Below are positions 52,295 through 60,600 of a stretch of DNA of 64,000 bases, piece after piece. The position numbers and the translations under genes are program-made. This stretch comes from Bifidobacterium bohemicum DSM 22767 (GTDB lineage Bacteria > Actinomycetota > Actinomycetes > Actinomycetales > Bifidobacteriaceae), in NCBI RefSeq assembly GCF_000741525.1, contig NZ_JGYP01000005.1, positions 109,990 through 173,989 of the forward strand. Reading direction: 5' to 3'. The notes below the pieces were generated by a model, which worked only from the letters and a program-made list of their open reading frames with translations, was not told the origin of the DNA and made no database searches. Position 1 is the first letter of the stretch. Each line of letters begins with the position of its first letter.

Positions 52295-52816
52295 ATGAAA
52301 AGGCCCGAAAAGGCAGAGGTGATTGCCGAGCTTACGGAGAAGTTCCGTAACGCCGACGCGATTTACCTGTCCGAGTACCGCGGGCTTACCGTTCCGCAGA
52401 TCACCGATCTGCGTGAAAAGCTAGGCCGCGATACTTCCTACTCCGTGGCTAAGAACACGTTGGCTCGCATCGCCGCCAAAGAGGCTGGGTACGAAGGCTT
52501 CGATGAAGTCCTCGCCGGCCCTTGCGCAATTACCTTCGTAAAGGGTGATTACGTTGAGGCTGCGAAGGTCATGCGTGACTTTGCCAAAGACAATAAGGCC
52601 CTCGTCATCAAGGGTGGTTTCGCAGACGGAACCATGTACGACGCCGAAGGCTTCAAACAGCTCGCGGATCTCGAATCTCGCGACACGCTGCTTGCCAAGA
52701 TGGCTGGCGATCTCAAGGGCTCCATGTCCAAGGCCGCCGCACTGTTCGTCGCTCTGCCCACCAAGGCCGTGCGTACGATCGACGCCTTGCGCGAGAAGCA
52801 GGAAAAGGCCGCCTGA
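52295..52816 (+). CDS. rplJ: 50S ribosomal protein L10
   Basis: A 173-residue L10, which anchors the L7/L12 stalk on 23S rRNA. It begins MKRPEKAEVIAEL and has YLSEYRGLTVPQITDLR and SYSVAKNTLARIAA; the C-terminal helix binds L7/L12. The frame is open for 49 further codons upstream, but ATG 52295 has AGGAAGGAA upstream and matches the family start. It is followed by rplL. Confidence 0.97.
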   Translation: MKRPEKAEVIAELTEKFRNADAIYLSEYRGLTVPQITDLREKLGRDTSYSVAKNTLARIAAKEAGYEGFDEVLAGPCAITFVKGDYVEAAKVMRDFAKDNKALVIKGGFADGTMYDAEGFKQLADLESRDTLLAKMAGDLKGSMSKAAALFVALPTKAVRTIDALREKQEKAA

Positions 52817-52942
52817 TTACTTTGTCCGGTTCGTGCCGGTCGATGGGAACAAGCAGTCGCAAGCAGTAAACAATTAAAGAATAAAGAATTTCGGTGACGG
52901 AAACCGAAAATACTCCGTCGCCACGATTGAAAGGAAGCCATT

Positions 52943-53323
52943 ATGGCTAAGCTCTCAAGCGATGAGCTTCTTGACGCGTTCAAGGAAATGACCCTGGTTG
53001 AGCTCTCCGACTTCGTCAAGAAGTTCGAAGAGGAGTTCGATGTCGAGGCTGCCGCTCCGGTCGCCGCCGTCGCCGCGGCCCCCGCCGCCGGTGCCCCCGC
53101 CGCCGAAGAGAAGGATGAGTTCGATGTCGTGCTCACCGCTTTCGGCGACAAGAAGATCCAGGTCATCAAGGTCGTCAAGACCCTGACCGGCAAGGGTCTG
53201 GCTGAGGCCAAGGCTCTGGTTGACGGCGCTCCTGCCACCATCCTCGAGGGTGCGAAGAAGGAAGATGCCGAGAAGGCCAAGAAGGACATCGAAGAGGCCG
53301 GCGGCACCGTCGAACTCAAGTAG
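52943..53323 (+). CDS. rplL: 50S ribosomal protein L7/L12
   Basis: A 126-residue stalk protein that recruits translation GTPases. The N-terminal dimer domain [20 protein letters not shown] is followed by an Ala/Pro hinge (about 36-55) and the C-terminal domain with [16 protein letters not shown] and [10 protein letters not shown]. Normal length. GAAAGGAAG precedes the ATG. It lies 126 nt after rplJ and ends in a strong terminator. Confidence 0.98.
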
Positions 53324-53387
53324 TTCCGACCTGCTTCCTTTGTCGGGTTCCACGGTATGCGCCGTGGCTCGGAGGGACGTAGCTGCG

Positions 53388-53434
53388 AAACCCCGCGTGT
53401 GGATCATTCCCCGTGGGGTTTTGTTTTTTTTTTT
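53388..53434 (+). terminator. rplJL terminator
   Basis: AAACCCCGCG (53388-53397) pairs with CGTGGGGTTT (53412-53421), followed by a T-run with one G, the longest T-run of the window (53424-53434). Confidence 0.92.
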
Positions 53435-53570
53435 ACGATGTGCTTCATGGCGGTCATGCGAAGGAGTTGTCAATGTATGCAGGTTATGCGTATGACAATC
53501 TTGCGCACATGGCACAATCTGTCTTAGGGTTTTAGACGGCGTGTAGGGTAGCATCGGTATAGCATCTACA

Positions 53571-55283
53571 ATGACATTGAGCACAAGCAGGAAGGTCGGC
53601 CGATCAATGGGAGCGCAATCCGTGCAGCGATGGGTCATCAAGGCCAATAACGCCATCGAGTGTGCCGTAAGTCGTGGCCAGAGCGTCGAAATAGGTCGTA
53701 GGCCGTTACGTCCTTTGACGGGCAATCGGCATAAACGGGTCGATATTGATGACCCCACCCGTTCGATGTCAAAGCGGCACGTGCTGTTTTCCGTCAGCGA
53801 TACCGGTTCTGCGACCATTCGCGATCTGGGTTCGACGAATGGCACGTATCTGGTCGCGGATGACGGTGGCCTGCGTCGGCTCGAACGGATGCGCGACTAC
53901 CCGTTGGGGGATTCTCCGATACGTGTACAGCTGGGAGATGTACCGATCGATTTTGTAGAGGTCGTCGAGGATCAGACGGATCGGCCGCCGGTTGCTGATT
54001 TATTTGAGTATGCAAAAGGTCGTTCGAACGCCGAGCCTGAGATGGGCGAGATGTCCGTTGACGACATTCTTGACCTGAGGGCCGGGGAGCCTACCGCATC
54101 CATCAACTCGGCGGATGTGGCCGAGCGGATCAAGAAACTCGTCGAGGCTCAGAATGCCAAGGTGCGGTCCCATGTGAACTCGTCTGACGACAATGCCGCG
54201 GATGCCGGGCGGGATAAACACGAGGCTGGGGCCGCTGTGCAACGGCAGGATCCTGACGCTGCCGAACATGATGCCGTTGCCAAGGATGACGACGCTGACG
54301 ACCGGCAGTCTCCGCCCGCGACGGATGCCTTGGATGCGCATGCGTCGCAGGTTACCGTCGAAGCCAATGCCGACAGGCAGACGGTTTCCTTGGATCGGAG
54401 CGTGCGCGACGAATCCGATGCCAGTGAACCGACAGAGGAGGCTTCCGCCTTTGAGGGTCTTTCATTGGGCGTGGTGGGCACGGCTCCGGTGATGCCTTCC
54501 AAGCCCCGTGACCTTTTCCGGGATGCCTTTACCGGCGACGCCATCAGTGCCGTCCAACCGACCGCCGACTCCCCGGTGAGCGACGATTCGCCGTCGGCAT
54601 TTCATGACGTGACGCCGGCTGTGACTCAAACCGGTGGGGCCAATATGTCGGCCGCAGGTCCTGTCACGGGCGCGATTTCGCCCGACGGCAAGGGGGCGGT
54701 GCAAAATTCCGAGGCAGTTTCCGGTTCGTCTGACCACCCGGTCGCGGCCAAAGAGGTTCCGACGGGCGGTGCGATTTCGAGCTTTATGGAGCATCGTGAG
54801 CAGGTTGTTTTTGTGCCCATGGATCAGCAGACGGGACGGTCGGTGCCTGATCAAAACGACGGGATTTCACCATATGATCGTTTCATGAAACCGCAGGAAG
54901 CTGAAGTCGATCAGGATGATTTGCAGCAGAATCCGGTTGGCGCGGAGCAGAATCAGACCGGTGCGTTCACTCCCGCCTTCGAGCCCGGGTCGGTGTTCGA
55001 AAAGGTCTCAAAGGGCCAGTTTGATCGGGTCGACACGGCTCAGTCGGTCGAAGCCGGCGGGTTCACATCTGACGACGCGCAGCGCTCCGATGATTTCAGC
55101 AAGCAATTCCAGATGGCCGGATATCCTGAACTACAGGCCTTCTTGGCCATGAATCCCAATCTGTATGATGATTTATATGCATGGCTGAGTGCCTTGGGTA
55201 ATCAGGATGTTGATGCTGCACTTGAACGCAACTCCGGTTATGCGCGATATCGCGAGAGGGCAGGGAAGGGACGCCGATCATGA
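53571..55283 (+). CDS. FHA-domain protein, first gene of a three-gene operon
   Basis: A 570-residue protein. Residues about 35-130 form an FHA domain with IGRRPLRPL, SMSKRHVLF and DLGSTNGTYL, which hold the usual Arg, Ser/His and Asn of phosphothreonine binding. The rest (about 140-500) is low-complexity and acidic, and the last 55 residues are conserved-looking (YPELQAFLAMNPNLYDDLYA). FHA proteins recognise targets of Ser/Thr kinases. ATG 53571 or 53607 are both possible. Its stop overlaps the next start as ATGA. The partner is the helicase-like protein. Confidence 0.82.
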   Translation: MTLSTSRKVGRSMGAQSVQRWVIKANNAIECAVSRGQSVEIGRRPLRPLTGNRHKRVDIDDPTRSMSKRHVLFSVSDTGSATIRDLGSTNGTYLVADDGGLRRLERMRDYPLGDSPIRVQLGDVPIDFVEVVEDQTDRPPVADLFEYAKGRSNAEPEMGEMSVDDILDLRAGEPTASINSADVAERIKKLVEAQNAKVRSHVNSSDDNAADAGRDKHEAGAAVQRQDPDAAEHDAVAKDDDADDRQSPPATDALDAHASQVTVEANADRQTVSLDRSVRDESDASEPTEEASAFEGLSLGVVGTAPVMPSKPRDLFRDAFTGDAISAVQPTADSPVSDDSPSAFHDVTPAVTQTGGANMSAAGPVTGAISPDGKGAVQNSEAVSGSSDHPVAAKEVPTGGAISSFMEHREQVVFVPMDQQTGRSVPDQNDGISPYDRFMKPQEAEVDQDDLQQNPVGAEQNQTGAFTPAFEPGSVFEKVSKGQFDRVDTAQSVEAGGFTSDDAQRSDDFSKQFQMAGYPELQAFLAMNPNLYDDLYAWLSALGNQDVDAALERNSGYARYRERAGKGRRS

Positions 55284-58200
55284 GCGGCACAAACCGTACT
55301 ACAAGTGGCATCGAACGGATGGCGCAGTGGCGTGACGAATATCGGGAGGGACTCAAGCCTTCACCCCTTGAGGATGTGACGCAACTGGCCGCAAGGCTCG
55401 ATCTCACCCACGCGCATCCCACCGGGGTGGCGCAGTTGTTCGCCAGTGGCCATACCACTCTTGACTCGATGTTCCGCGACCAAGGTATGCTGCGGGCCGC
55501 CGGCCGTAGACTTGAGCGGGTATTGGACGATTTGGCGGTCAAGGTCCGTACCTTTGGCGTCGCAGAGCTGTCGTTGGTCGTCGGAGTGGCCTCGTTCAAG
55601 GATTCCAACGTGCCCGTGCTGCTGTACCCGGTCGAAGCGCAAAGGGCCGCCGACGGCCGCGAGACCGGTGCCTCGATTCGTTTCACCGGGCATGTCAGTC
55701 TCAATCCCGCCTTCATCTCGTCAATGCGTGCGGCCGGTGTCACCATCGATGAGCGCGCCTTGTTCGACGGGTCGAATTATCCCAGCGGAACCCCGGATAC
55801 TTCCACGGTGTTTGCGGCGTTGACCAAGTTGGCATCCCCGGTCTTCCCCGATTTTGACATCGAACGCGCCATTGTGCTCGGTTGCTTCATGGATCCCACC
55901 ACAAGGACGCTTTCGGAGGGTGGACGCATTATCGACGCCCTGAAAAGCAAGCCTTCGGGCAATCCCGCACTCGATGCGCTGGCAGGGTACGGCGATGCCG
56001 TTAAGCGTCTGAATGGTGAACAGCTTCCGCAATACAGTCCTTTCGATGACGATCCGCACAATGAACATGAGGTGGGTGACGTCAGCAACGAAGTACGTAA
56101 TGCGGCGAAGCTCGCGGCCTCTGGCCATTCCTTGTTCATTGACGTTGCGCCTGGCGACGACTCGGCTCTCGACGCTGCAGCGATAGCCTCACGTTGCGTT
56201 GCTTCGAACCGTTCAGTGCTTTACGTGGCCGGGGTGTCCGGGCAACAGAAGCGTTTCGGGCATATCATGAAGACGGCCGGCCTCGATAAATTGGTGCTGG
56301 ATCTGGCCGACGGCAAGGCGGTCGCAGGTCTCGACCGGCGACTGATTGAGGCCGTCGGGTTCCGTCCCGGTGCGGCCGCTTCACGGTTCGACCAGCTTTC
56401 CGACGAACTTGTGGGCGTGCGTTCGCGACTGACCCGTTATCTGGGTGATTTACACGGAGTTGACAAGCAATGGGGCGTCTCGGCCTATCAGACCATACAG
56501 AACCTTGCAAAGATCGCCGCTTTGCCTGTGCATCCGGCTACTCACGTTCGTCTGAGCGCACAGACAGCCCATGCGATTGCGCCGAACATGACGCAGTGGG
56601 GTCAGAAGCTGCGACGTGCCGCACAATTCGGTGAGTTCACCATCGAGCCACAGGACACGGTCTGGTATCACGCATCGTTGTATTCCGACAGGGATGCGGT
56701 CAGCGCCTATCGGAACGTGGAAGACCTTCTTCAACGGCTTCTTCCCGAACTTCGCGAACAGGTCAGTTCCACCACTCAGGCATGTGGCTTCCCGGTGCCC
56801 GCCACCGTCGAGGATTGGGGTCATCAGGTCAGGATTCTCAGGAACCTGCGTCGTGTTCTCGACGTGTTCCAGCCGGAGATTTTCGAACGCGATATTTCCG
56901 GAATGATTGAAGCGAGCAAGCCCAAGGCGCAACGCAAATCCGAAGGATCCCAGATGGGCTTCTGGGAGCGTCGGCGGCGCGTCAAAGAGGCCAAGAGTCT
57001 TCTGCGTCCGGCGGCACAGGTCGAAGACCTCAATGCAGCCCTCAAAGTCGTCGACAAGCAGGCGGCACAGTGGCGTACGTTGGTGCCTCATGGCGGTTGG
57101 CCGGTTCTGCCCCCGAAACTGGATGCGATTATCGACACACAGGAGGCATTGATGCGTTCCATCACGTCTCTTGACGCCGTTTTGAACACCACCATTGCGG
57201 GCGGAAATTTGGAAACGATGGATTTGGCACGGCTTGAGGAACGGCTCAAGGCGCTATACGCCGACCGTATGGCCCTCGACACCCTGCCGAGTCGCGCCCA
57301 GTTGGAGCGTGACTTCTCCGCTGCCGGTCTGGATGAACTCATAGATGACATGCGTTCTCGACACGTGGACATCAACGCGGTCGAAGCCGAGCTCCAGCTT
57401 TCCTGGTGGACGACCGTTTTTGAGGACATCGTGGGTTCGTCCGCGATTATCTCCAATCAGGATGGGTCGGCACTGCAGTCGGCCGTGGATCGCTTCGAGC
57501 AGGTTGATGTTGATCACATAGGGTCCATCGGGCCCATGGTGGCGCAGGAATCTACGCGACGGCTGTGCGACCTGTTGTTTGCTCGTACGCAGGAGGCAAA
57601 CCGGTTGCATACTTTGCTGGCCGGCAGCCCCCGTGTGCCGCTTACGCGTGCACGTCGTGAATACCCGGAGATCGTGATGGCCGCAAAGCCGGTGCTTTCA
57701 GCCACGCCTGCTGCGCTCACCGTCGCCAGCGACCCCGGTCCGTTGGCGCAAGTCGTCATCATCGATGCAGCCGCGCATCTGCCGGCTCTGGAACTGCTTG
57801 GCATTCTTGCGCGAGCGCGGCAGGTTGTGGTGCTGGCCCATGGTTCGACCGTCACCTCGAGCAGCCTCAAGGCGCTAATCGGGCTTTTGCCCCGCATCGC
57901 ATCTGAGCCATGTCCTAGTCGTCGCGATCCCAAACTGTGCGCCTTTCTGAGCAATCATGGGTATGGGATCGTTCGTTGCGACGTGGCTACCGCGGCCGAA
58001 CAGGGTCGTGTCAGATACCATCGCGTCAAAGGCGGTGGTGTGCCGGTGCTTGCGACGGGTCTGGTGGAGAGTAGCCAACAGGAAATCAGTGAGGTCGTGG
58101 CCACCGTCAAACGGCGTGCTGCGGGCTTTACCGTGGTTCCCACCGACTATCTGTTGGCGATCGTCACGTTGACGCCCGTGTTTCGTAGTCGGCTTGGCGC

Positions 58201-58897
58201 CGAATTCAAGTCGCTTGCCGCCAAAGATGAGTCCATGGCGCGTTTCCTGCGGCATGTGCGCTTGCTGGACATCGATCAGATAGCCGGGCTGAAAGCGACC
58301 GATGTCATCCTTTCGCTTAGTTTCGCCAAGACCGCTCATGGCCGTCTGTTGCAGCAGTTCGGTGCGCTTGAATCCGTGGGTGGTGACGGTGAAATATTGG
58401 ATGCGCTTGCGTTGGCCGATCGCAATCTTGATATCATTTCCGCGTTTGGATCCGAAGACATGGAGGATGACCGTCTTCACCAACCTGGTCCCCAACTCCT
58501 CAAGCAGTTGCTCGTGTGGGCTGAGAAGCTCCATGACGAATCATCGCGTCCGCAGGAGCGGATCACAGGGGGGAATGTGCTTGTTGACGATCTGGCCAAG
58601 CGCATTCGTGCCCGTGGGCTCAACGTTGCCGTGCATTATGGTTTCGATGGGGGTATTTCCATTCCATTGGTCGTGGGGTTGAAGGATAAGCCTTTCTGCC
58701 TGGCAGTACTGACCGACGATGCGAACTTCATGAGCATCCAGTCCACTCGTCTCCGTCACCGTGTGCTGACACAGCGTCTACAGTCGCTTGGCTGGTCGGT
58801 CATGGAGGTTTGGAGTGTCGGGGCGTTCGTCAACCCCGACCAGGAGGTCGATCGCGTGGTGGGCAGAATTGGTCAGATCTACCGTGAGGTGCGTTGA
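55280..58897 (+). CDS. Large helicase/nuclease-like protein with degraded catalytic motifs
   Basis: A 1205-residue protein with the layout of the SF1 (AAA_11/AAA_12, DUF4011-like) helicases fused to a C-terminal Vsr-like nuclease (MTES_1575 type). The place of the Walker A loop (about 280-295) reads SLFIDVAPGDDSALDAAA instead of GPPGTGKSQT; the Walker B region reads VVIIDAAAHLPALELLG where IDEASQ is expected (about 828); the QLPP motif is AHGSTVTSS. The end (about 1100-1200) reads HYGFDGGISIPLVVG and LAVLTDDANF, then LGWSVMEVWSV, the MTES_1575 fold without its IDLA/E-D-G catalytic set. It seems an inactive scaffold. It starts by ATGA overlap with the FHA gene. Confidence 0.75.
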   Translation: MSGTNRTTSGIERMAQWRDEYREGLKPSPLEDVTQLAARLDLTHAHPTGVAQLFASGHTTLDSMFRDQGMLRAAGRRLERVLDDLAVKVRTFGVAELSLVVGVASFKDSNVPVLLYPVEAQRAADGRETGASIRFTGHVSLNPAFISSMRAAGVTIDERALFDGSNYPSGTPDTSTVFAALTKLASPVFPDFDIERAIVLGCFMDPTTRTLSEGGRIIDALKSKPSGNPALDALAGYGDAVKRLNGEQLPQYSPFDDDPHNEHEVGDVSNEVRNAAKLAASGHSLFIDVAPGDDSALDAAAIASRCVASNRSVLYVAGVSGQQKRFGHIMKTAGLDKLVLDLADGKAVAGLDRRLIEAVGFRPGAAASRFDQLSDELVGVRSRLTRYLGDLHGVDKQWGVSAYQTIQNLAKIAALPVHPATHVRLSAQTAHAIAPNMTQWGQKLRRAAQFGEFTIEPQDTVWYHASLYSDRDAVSAYRNVEDLLQRLLPELREQVSSTTQACGFPVPATVEDWGHQVRILRNLRRVLDVFQPEIFERDISGMIEASKPKAQRKSEGSQMGFWERRRRVKEAKSLLRPAAQVEDLNAALKVVDKQAAQWRTLVPHGGWPVLPPKLDAIIDTQEALMRSITSLDAVLNTTIAGGNLETMDLARLEERLKALYADRMALDTLPSRAQLERDFSAAGLDELIDDMRSRHVDINAVEAELQLSWWTTVFEDIVGSSAIISNQDGSALQSAVDRFEQVDVDHIGSIGPMVAQESTRRLCDLLFARTQEANRLHTLLAGSPRVPLTRARREYPEIVMAAKPVLSATPAALTVASDPGPLAQVVIIDAAAHLPALELLGILARARQVVVLAHGSTVTSSSLKALIGLLPRIASEPCPSRRDPKLCAFLSNHGYGIVRCDVATAAEQGRVRYHRVKGGGVPVLATGLVESSQQEISEVVATVKRRAAGFTVVPTDYLLAIVTLTPVFRSRLGAEFKSLAAKDESMARFLRHVRLLDIDQIAGLKATDVILSLSFAKTAHGRLLQQFGALESVGGDGEILDALALADRNLDIISAFGSEDMEDDRLHQPGPQLLKQLLVWAEKLHDESSRPQERITGGNVLVDDLAKRIRARGLNVAVHYGFDGGISIPLVVGLKDKPFCLAVLTDDANFMSIQSTRLRHRVLTQRLQSLGWSVMEVWSVGAFVNPDQEVDRVVGRIGQIYREVR

Positions 58898-59142
58898 TGG
58901 CCGCATACGACTCCAGTCGTCGTACCCCTCGTGGACGGCATAGACGTGTGATCAAGGTCGGTACTGAAAGGTTCGCCATGAATGATGCCGATCAGGTGAA
59001 TCAGGGCTTTGTCGTCGCCGATTCGACGGGCTTCACCGATTATTCTGACCGTCGTGCGCCCGAATCCAAGAACGCCGAGGATGATGGTCGTATTCTCACT
59101 GAGTTACCACCGCATTGGGCGGTCTTCAGCGAACGCGAGTAA
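58897..59142 (+). CDS. 81-residue protein, third gene of the FHA operon
   Basis: ATG 58897 shares its A with the TGA of the large gene. The product (AAYDSSRRTPRGRHRRVI then VGTERFAMNDADQVNQGF) has a basic head and an acidic-polar tail, ending PPHWAVFSERE. No membrane segment and no family recognised. Its position by coupled overlap supports a role with the two genes before it. Confidence 0.65.
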   Translation: MAAYDSSRRTPRGRHRRVIKVGTERFAMNDADQVNQGFVVADSTGFTDYSDRRAPESKNAEDDGRILTELPPHWAVFSERE

Positions 59143-59213
59143 GGGGTAGCGACCGAACCGGAGCGGGTGAAGCTGTGTCAAGCTTAGGGTGCACGGGGAT
59201 CGATCAACTTGTG

Positions 59214-60356
59214 TCACCTTCCTTTCATCGTTGCCATGATGCCGATACGTTCCTGAACCGCCATCACCTTCGCGGCTTCGCCTGGCGACATGGCGAATTG
59301 CACTGTTTCCTTGTCTTCGCCTCCTCCCATGCCCCCGGTGTCATTGCTTTTGTGGGCTACGGTAATAACCGTTGCCGTTTGGGCAAGGGTACAGAGCTCG
59401 TTACGTTCTGGTCCTTGCGTCGCTGATGACTCCGAAGGGGCTGGCGAATTCGTTGACGCCAATAAGGGCTGTGGCGTCTCTATTTTTCGGTTTTTGTCTT
59501 TTTCCTCCGCTTCCTTCGGATTTTGAACACCCTGCATGGTCGGCGTTACGTGTCTTATCTGTGCTCTTGATGCTGTGCGTGTTATTTGCGATGGTCGTAT
59601 TCGTTGTATTGATGACACCGTTAACGCTGTCCGCACTGGCGAACCTGATGGCGTGGACGATTTTGATTGTTCTGTTTGCGCAGACGGCAACCTGCGTATT
59701 CTCTGTGCCGAAACCGTTGACTCGGCATCGGTGAACATCGCCGTGATGTCCGCATGTGAGGCCTCGGCCATGCCGCGCATGTCGGATTCGGCGGCCCCGG
59801 CAGCATTGTCGTCTGGTGTTCTCCGCTCCGGTGCATACCCGCTTTCGGCTGAGCGTTGCACGTTTTCGCAACTTGTGACCGCCACCAGCGTGACCGATTG
59901 TCCAGGGATGAGTTCGTCGGCCACGCTTGCGATGCGTACGCTGACCACGGCCTGGCCCGGTTCCGGGACCGGCGAAGCACGAGCCATCGGTTTGATGAGC
60001 ATGTCGCCGGCCTTTATGTCGATTTGCGCGATCTTCCCGATCGCCTGATTCGCGTCGGTGAAACCTGAGGCGAACGCTTTGTGATCGGGAATCTGGAGTA
60101 CGTTAAGATCTCCGCTCTCGATCAAAGTGCCACGCGCGATGTCGTGTGTGGCGATTACTGCCGTCTTGGTCCGCATCAGCCCCACCGCCGTTTCAAGGCC
60201 GAAAAACACCGTCAGTCCCACGCATATTGCCATCGTAACGGTTCGTAAAGTCTGGGCTTGTCTGCGTTGGTTGAGCGTCATGGCTTTGTGCGGCCGCGTA
60301 TTTGAGTCCGACGCATTGTCGTTGTGCCGATTCAGGTGTTGCAAAAAATTCATCAT
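59214..60356 (-). CDS. cpaB: CpaB/RcpC-like SAF-domain Flp pilus protein
   Basis: A 380-residue protein. After 40 hydrophilic residues comes one membrane helix (TVTMAICVGLTVFFGLETAV, about 43-62), then a SAF domain (KTAVIATHDIARGTLIESGD, IGKIAQIDIKAGDML, about 68-125) and VPEPGQAVVSVRIASVADEL typical of CpaB. The CpaB core is split by a 190-residue disordered Ser/Thr/Arg insert, and the end ETVQFAMSPGEAAKVMAVQE closes the fold. The start at 60356 is one of two adjacent ATG; its distance to the pilus element (48 nt) equals that of tadZ. CpaB proteins form part of the periplasmic pilus machinery. It is 45 kb from the tad genes. Confidence 0.8.
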   Translation of the reverse strand: MMNFLQHLNRHNDNASDSNTRPHKAMTLNQRRQAQTLRTVTMAICVGLTVFFGLETAVGLMRTKTAVIATHDIARGTLIESGDLNVLQIPDHKAFASGFTDANQAIGKIAQIDIKAGDMLIKPMARASPVPEPGQAVVSVRIASVADELIPGQSVTLVAVTSCENVQRSAESGYAPERRTPDDNAAGAAESDMRGMAEASHADITAMFTDAESTVSAQRIRRLPSAQTEQSKSSTPSGSPVRTALTVSSIQRIRPSQITRTASRAQIRHVTPTMQGVQNPKEAEEKDKNRKIETPQPLLASTNSPAPSESSATQGPERNELCTLAQTATVITVAHKSNDTGGMGGGEDKETVQFAMSPGEAAKVMAVQERIGIMATMKGR

Positions 60357-60404
60357 GCCGTCATCATGGCCCTGCCTTGGGAGTATGGCAATGCGGAACG
60401 GTTG

Positions 60405-60475
60405 CTGTGACCCAAATCGACGGGCTGTGTATAAATTCGGCGTGTCGCAGTGAATAGCCGTCGAAATTATCCACA
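60405..60475 (-). promoter_or_regulatory. Flp-pilus element with DnaA box (cpaB copy)
   Basis: On the minus strand, CGACACGCC (60447-60439) and TTGGGTCACAG (60415-60405) are 23 nt apart, as upstream of tadZ and flp. A perfect TGTGGATAA (60475-60467) lies 19 nt upstream rather than within the spacer. The spacer itself is not otherwise conserved. Confidence 0.78.
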
Positions 60476-60600
60476 ATGCGCGTGGGACGATTTCAGGGTT
60501 GCCAAACAAGCGTGGAAATCCGTCGGAATACGAAAAAACCGACTGTTACCAGCCGGTTTAACTACGTATCTGATCAAGCAATTCGTTTCAAAGAAAACGC

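Follow-up and report, generated by a model that had tools for sequence, protein, structure and literature searches.

The window analysed here is a stretch of 64,000 nucleotides from Bifidobacterium bohemicum DSM 22767 (contig NZ_JGYP01000005.1), whose 2.05 Mb genome is assembled in 5 contigs. Between positions 53571 and 59142 it carries three consecutive genes, referred to below as the triad, that encode an FHA domain protein, a large helicase-like protein and a small protein with a C-terminal PPHW motif:

53571–55283, + strand: open reading frame (ORF) of the putative FHA-LRV_2 adaptor, 570 residues; the likely start at 53607 gives 558 residues.
55280–58897, + strand: ORF of the putative pseudo-helicase/pseudo-nuclease, 1205 residues, related to DUF4011-type SF1 helicase and MTES_1575 restriction endonuclease proteins.
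58897–59142, + strand: ORF of the PPHW microprotein, 81 residues counted from the ATG.

As read directly from the sequence, the FHA and helicase-like genes overlap by ATGA at 55280–55283, and the helicase-like and small genes overlap by TGATG at 58895–58899. A first-pass annotation of this DNA had described the same set and the same overlaps and had proposed that the three genes are translated together, and this proposal holds up, as the overlaps point to one co-translated unit. For the FHA gene, the ATG at 53607, 11 bases after AGGAAGG, is the more likely start.

The large protein is predicted to adopt a two-RecA SF1B (Upf1-like) fold with a helical insert, since its AlphaFold2 model (predicted local distance difference test score (pLDDT) 88.7, predicted template modelling score (pTM) 0.76) matches IGHMBP2 (VIA-align Z 18.2 over 454 residues, root-mean-square deviation 5.6), Upf1 (Z 17.4) and Dna2 (Z 17.2). 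These structural comparison rows span residues 1–1086 and hardly bear on the nuclease domain that follows. A sequence search against solved structures gave a single weak match (0.51). The sole Pfam match of the window protein was that C-terminal nuclease domain (PF18741, MTES_1575; 6e-10), at 39.5 bits just above the gathering score of 38.2, and no HEPN domain was among its Pfam matches. Both this domain and the LRV_2 domain (PF25591) of the FHA protein had been overlooked in the first-pass annotation. The catalytic positions of the helicase and nuclease parts are degenerate:

56132–56185, + strand: degenerate motif I, with APGDDSALD in place of the PPGTGKSQT of intact relatives (from the alignment).
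57746–57805, + strand: degenerate motif II, with VVIIDAAAH in place of the VVIFDEASQ of intact relatives and the D retained.
58589–58867, + strand: degenerate MTES_1575 (Vsr-like) nuclease domain (PF18741, 6e-10), IPLVV for IDLAV and LTDD for VETD.

The motif III region is changed as well (AHGST), motif V reads LKATD against GDERD in intact relatives, and motif VI reads DALALADR against NVAITRAR. In terms of single residues, the lysine of motif I is replaced by serine, the glutamate of motif II by alanine and the arginine of motif VI by glycine. In the nuclease domain, where the catalytic residues were assigned from conservation, aspartate is replaced by proline and glutamate by leucine, with the second D of 'TDD' kept.

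We compared these positions across 88 aligned loci (97 hand-chosen from search results, less 9 without an ORF of more than 800 residues), which comprise 21 from Bifidobacteriaceae, 58 from other families of the order and 9 from other orders; as the loci were hand-chosen, the class counts given below are not population frequencies. The motif I lysine, the motif II glutamate and the first nuclease aspartate are missing in 21/21 Bifidobacteriaceae members. An intact motif I was found in none of 138 Bifidobacteriaceae loci (a total that includes the window and in which species overlap between the constituent sets), which bears out the earlier description of the protein as a dead helicase and leads us to reject an accident of sequencing or of a single lineage. 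Only one of these loci (L186) showed a P-loop or DEAS pattern, which lies in a linker and away from motif I. We also rejected an intact paralogue in the window genome as a pairing partner, as only one match exists in that genome. Of 12 regions compared within the family, only one is less conserved than motif I, which scores 0.49 (0.86 in intact relatives), and the helical insert is among the most conserved (0.66–0.67 vs 0.51–0.55 in intact relatives). The gene itself is under purifying selection: the ratio of nonsynonymous to synonymous substitution rates (dN/dS; Nei-Gojobori, 19 hand-picked pairs, several with high dS) was 0.03–0.10 in 15/19 pairs, with a median of 0.07, and in 62 sequences, 453 of 1200 positions were either invariant or conserved to at least 90%.

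The 81-residue protein has a basic N-terminal motif and the C-terminal pattern DDxRILxELPPHWxxF, and it had no Pfam or NCBIfam match. Its tail is encoded as follows:

59107–59118, + strand: PPHW tail codons; the tail is also fused to helicase C-termini elsewhere.

The tail was found in 70/88 aligned loci, in a downstream ORF in 61 and at the helicase's own C-terminus in 9 (counted by the pattern PPH[WFA]; a pattern that also admits PPHY gives 10 fused tails). At the same loci, a C-terminal PPH[WFA] is present in 62/606 downstream same-strand ORFs and in 6/6371 other ORFs (Fisher 6e-60, the ORFs not being independent). In B. reuteri DSM 23975 (L149:3902-7807), the helicase and the whole small protein lie in one open frame. 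Such natural fusion argues for a physical partner, and from adjacency, overlap and fusion we infer that the PPHW protein is probably an old, stable subunit of the helicase-like protein. A conserved threonine of the small protein was considered as the FHA ligand and rejected, as there is none among its positions with at least 95% conservation.

Throughout Bifidobacteriaceae the three genes stay together. Among the best 80 of 224 matches, whose titles are all Bifidobacterium, Gardnerella, Bombiscardovia or Bifidobacteriaceae, the FHA, helicase-like and small genes had the same order and orientation in 80/80 loci (L123, with a broken FHA frame, was retained in this set). Counting from the earliest start codon available to the helicase ORF, the spacing between the FHA and helicase-like genes was exactly −4 in 43/80 and at most 20 bases in 74/80; counting from the nearest possible start of the small gene, its spacing to the helicase-like gene was −4 in 42/80, −1 in 20/80 and at most 20 bases in 78/80. 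A second set of 58 loci that includes the window (L001–L058) had the FHA and helicase-like genes in 58/58 and the small gene, by score, in 55/58. The remaining three (L031, L032 and L033, from genomes of 0.8–0.9 Mb) have a short downstream ORF that ends in LPPHF; these reduced genomes thus retain the FHA gene, the pseudo-helicase and a shortened PPHF ORF.

A homologue of the large protein was present in 149/151 Bifidobacteriaceae genomes and in 295/297 genomes of the order, the latter counted as sequence matches at E ≤ 0.001 that possibly include some paralogues. In a wider sample of the class, 117/345 genomes had a match, many by distant proteins only. Outside Bifidobacteriaceae, 30/40 loci have mscL, fmdB or a 5-FTHF ligase gene close to the helicase gene. 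Four loci in this same neighbourhood (L100, L102, L107 and L109) encode proteins with intact helicase and nuclease residues and a PPHW tail, and these may be active helicase-nucleases, judging by their residues. Neither the mscL/fmdB/5-FTHF ligase neighbours nor the PPHW tail were seen with four intact proteins of other orders (L091, L095, L097 and L098).

Sorted by catalytic residues, 13 of the 88 aligned proteins keep both the helicase and nuclease residues, 12 keep the nuclease pair only and 63 have neither, with no case (0/88) of the helicase set without the nuclease pair. L200, a fragment without motif I, was treated as intact in the tree and as helicase-dead in the class count, and was omitted from the Fisher test, which gave 2e-9 for the resulting split (13/0 vs 11/63); as the sequences are related, this value is indicative only. 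The order of events appears to have been loss of the helicase residues and then of the nuclease residues. Relatives that keep the tested catalytic residues occur in two other families. If regain is excluded, the tree requires 5 losses. One falls in L092, a locus without the usual neighbours, which leaves four for the main group of the tree; a misplaced L197 (support 0.86) would bring these down to three. Support at the deep nodes of this tree is 0.09–0.31, and as the intended outgroup formed no clade, it was rooted on one member of that outgroup.

The FHA protein contains these features:

53691–53906, + strand: FHA domain (PF00498, 2e-8, residues 41–112, over the cut-off), with R43, S67 and N90 conserved.
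54054–54095, + strand: conserved linear motif SVDDILDLRAGEPT after the FHA domain, with at least 95% conservation at 11/14 positions in 81 sequences.
55122–55232, + strand: C-terminal LRV_2 domain (PF25591, 4e-11, residues 518–554).

Its LRV_2 match meets the gathering score (43.1 bits vs 27) and covers part of the domain, positions 24–60 of 61. The protein model shows a confident FHA sandwich, C-terminal helices and a long disordered middle, with a mean pLDDT of only 63.9, and its Foldseek list is dominated by FHA structures. R43, S67 and N90, which we take to be the phosphothreonine-contact positions of the FHA domain, are each at least 95% conserved in 81 sequences. With this fold and these residues, the protein is considered an FHA domain protein and is predicted to bind phosphothreonine, in line with the first-pass annotation. 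That annotation had also suggested control by a Ser/Thr kinase; kinases are at hand, with 6 Pkinase matches in the window genome, and such control is consistent with the sequence.

Outside Bifidobacteriaceae the picture differs. The FHA profile was found in 0/20 loci (L059–L078) and in 0/32 loci (L079–L110, of which twelve, L079–L090, have short flanks). As no FHA gene was seen next to the helicase there, the helicase-like and small genes probably form an older pair, with the FHA gene a later addition specific to the family. The first-pass annotation had held that frequent separation of the three genes in relatives would speak against a joint unit; no separation was seen inside the family, whereas outside it the FHA gene is not with the other two. 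A profile of the whole FHA-LRV_2 protein had a match in 9/9 sampled Bifidobacteriaceae genomes, two of them as two pieces. In other families, 96/110 genomes had some match, the best among the matches listed being 9e-18 over the FHA part, and none of the listed matches spanned both FHA and LRV_2.

The window genome also holds a PFNA-like region (L227:2159-17587; G000:C2:457158-472586), assigned by gene order, in which an FHA gene and an LRV_2 gene lie close together and a Ser/Thr kinase gene is also found; the kinase, LRV_2 and FHA products are those confirmed by Pfam. In the bifidobacterial PFNA operon, according to the accessible part of its description, the sixth gene encodes a phosphatase and the seventh a hypothetical protein without an assigned function (PMC8430577). 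In the window genome, the ORF at the sixth place had no Pfam match at 0.001. We observed two LRV_2 stretches in the product of the seventh gene; the FHA gene here is on the opposite strand and departs from the published order, in which the genes are co-transcribed. The same accessible text reports substrates of the kinase Pkb2 (PMC8430577), and Pkb2 is a candidate kinase for the triad FHA protein. An FHA domain protein with an insertion in the Scardovia clade, which may or may not be that of the triad, is listed in the accessible part of PMC4921777.

Upstream, the triad follows the ribosomal operon:

53385–53434, + strand: hairpin with a T run after rplL and before the triad (fold −25.3 kcal/mol, z −5.4).

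This hairpin is likely, on its predicted fold, a Rho-independent terminator that separates the ribosomal operon (rplL) from the triad. A simple pattern scan for terminators did not list it, as the rule of the scan calls for a shorter loop. No sigma-70-like promoter was found before the FHA gene in a scan of 52800–60600, which gave a single match, on the opposite strand near 60.4 kb, with 2.4 expected by chance. Single genes of the triad may nevertheless have promoters of their own. Convergent with the triad, a gene for a SAF/CpaB-like protein lies at 59214–60509 on the − strand, and a SAF-gene match was seen in 74 of the 80 Bifidobacteriaceae loci.

Each single domain of the triad is already known. 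The closest described relatives of the large protein, though distant, are the anti-phage proteins Hhe, ProA and PDC-S37 (DUF4011, SF1 helicase and Vsr-like restriction endonuclease), to which it has significant partial matches, with the C-terminal helicase and nuclease part matching best: NCBIfam antiphage_ProA (NF058533; 1e-43, 148.9 bits, below the curated cut-off of 1500), NCBIfam Hhe (NF042953; 1e-10, 39.7 bits, below the cut-off of 2000) and PADLOC PDC-S37 (3e-47). ProA was compared through its NCBIfam model. Unlike these proteins, the window protein scores far under the cut-offs, has lost the catalytic residues, is core and syntenic, and comes with a PPHW partner and an FHA adaptor. The C-terminal domain matches the MTES_1575 restriction endonuclease family, but its acidic residues are replaced; in the protein described under that name, HEPN, transglutaminase and wHTH domains are present as well, according to the accessible part of PMC3710099. 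The fold is shared with the SF1B helicases Upf1, IGHMBP2, Sen1 and Dna2, whereas the window protein is without the ATPase motifs and has a long helical insert and a bacterial nuclease domain.

The FHA protein shares its FHA domain with GarA, OdhI and FhaB (GarA and OdhI stand at rows 17 and 19 of the Foldseek list), but its NCBIfam matches to them are only weak (0.002 and 0.009, with bits far below the cut-offs of 200 and 125), and it differs in its long disordered middle and LRV_2 C-terminus. The PFNA operon, as far as the accessible text of PMC8430577 describes it, likewise places an FHA gene beside a gene that matches LRV_2 (a match made here) and near a Ser/Thr kinase; unlike in the triad, these are separate genes with other partners and no helicase. 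In Pseudomonas aeruginosa, a large core DUF4011 gene lies beside a conserved small hypothetical gene and flanks the defence hotspot cDHS1 (accessible part of PMC10250203), a layout like that of the large and small genes of the triad. Our literature search, in which PPHW was not a query word and subscription journals were mostly uncovered, turned up no account of the PPHW partner or of a dead, core version of the helicase-nuclease, and nothing by combined terms on ProA with phage defense and Vsr, on PDC-S37 or on pseudohelicases. The main text of a B. breve essential-gene paper, as accessible, had no match for FHA or helicase (PMC5514069). The first-pass annotation had known of no described function for the set.

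We favour, with moderate confidence, the reading that the triad encodes a non-catalytic complex, in which a dead helicase serves as a scaffold, the PPHW protein is a subunit and the FHA protein is an adaptor that links the complex to Ser/Thr phosphorylation. The 1205-residue pseudoenzyme, which in the model keeps the fold, the insert and the nuclease domain and has lost the residues for usual ATP binding, translocation and cutting, would serve as a platform, with the PPHW microprotein as its stable subunit. Relatives with intact residues point to the enzyme from which it arose, and its strict retention suggests that the cells still need it. The FHA-LRV_2 adaptor, presumably added in Bifidobacteriaceae, would bind phosphothreonine on a partner through its FHA domain, and its LRV_2 domain or its conserved linear motifs would bind the platform or another protein. 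Ser/Thr kinase activity would thereby decide what gets recruited. Both the fold and the small protein's basic motif suggest a role on nucleic acid, and the platform would most likely work on nucleic acid or on machines that act on it, as a housekeeping factor rather than in phage defence. For the wider history we see about even chances that an order-wide helicase-nuclease, of the same stock as Hhe and ProA, was several times independently stripped of its chemistry to become a structural hub with a PPHW subunit, to which Bifidobacteriaceae added kinase control through FHA-LRV_2.

Several observations weigh against this reading. Two of the 151 Bifidobacteriaceae genomes have no match (G005 and the 0.6 Mb G038), the PPHW tail was not found in 18/88 loci (7 of them with less than 1.1 kb of downstream sequence), and dN/dS of the helicase gene reached 0.11–0.41 in 4/19 pairs. 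The FHA gene evolves fast (dN/dS 0.13–0.60), and its absence next to the helicase outside the family implies that it is not needed for the core role. Within Bifidobacteriaceae, the motif VI arginine is kept in 4/21 members and the motif II aspartate in 20/21, and conservation of the motif II region remains high (0.65), so an unusual nucleotide site is possible. A protein that still uses a nucleotide or cuts nucleic acid through non-canonical residues would also fit the fold kept in the model, the second D of 'TDD' that the window protein retains and the clades outside the family in which the nuclease pair has outlasted the P-loop lysine. We consider such activity unlikely, as the window protein has altered residues in each of motifs I, II, III, V and VI, and motif I is far less conserved in the family than in intact relatives.

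The partial matches to antiphage_ProA, Hhe and PDC-S37, and the better ones of intact relatives (L102: ProA 801 bits, PDC-S37 820 bits), suit an anti-phage system in which the large protein acts as a sensor or effector of that kind with the FHA and small proteins as regulators. Defence genes are usually patchy and mobile. This protein is near-universal in the family and the order, shares its neighbours across most loci outside the family, is retained in the three 0.8–0.9 Mb genomes (though not found in the 0.6 Mb G038), scores far below the curated cut-offs and has lost its catalytic residues, which together make an anti-phage role quite unlikely; the immunity-related function raised in the first-pass annotation is accordingly not supported. 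We regard as very unlikely that the three genes are merely co-transcribed neighbours, with the FHA protein serving another pathway such as PFNA kinase signalling. The absence of FHA beside the helicase in other families and the FHA and LRV_2 genes away from the helicase at the PFNA region speak for it, but the genes are never separated in the best 80 of 224 matches and many of them overlap start to stop. A functionless gene in decay that persists by chance or through translational coupling would account for the lost catalytic residues; against it stand the full-length ORFs, low dN/dS, the 453 conserved positions of the helicase and the order-wide retention, and it is strongly disfavoured, with hardly any probability left to it.

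Should the scaffold reading be right, nearly all sampled genomes of the order encode a large protein that does its work without its family's chemistry. Since the same locus also encodes relatives with intact residues, the change from an enzyme to a scaffold can be tested directly, and the PPHW microprotein would offer a short handle for finding the role of the complex. In bifidobacteria, the FHA adaptor would then be a place where their Ser/Thr kinases may act.

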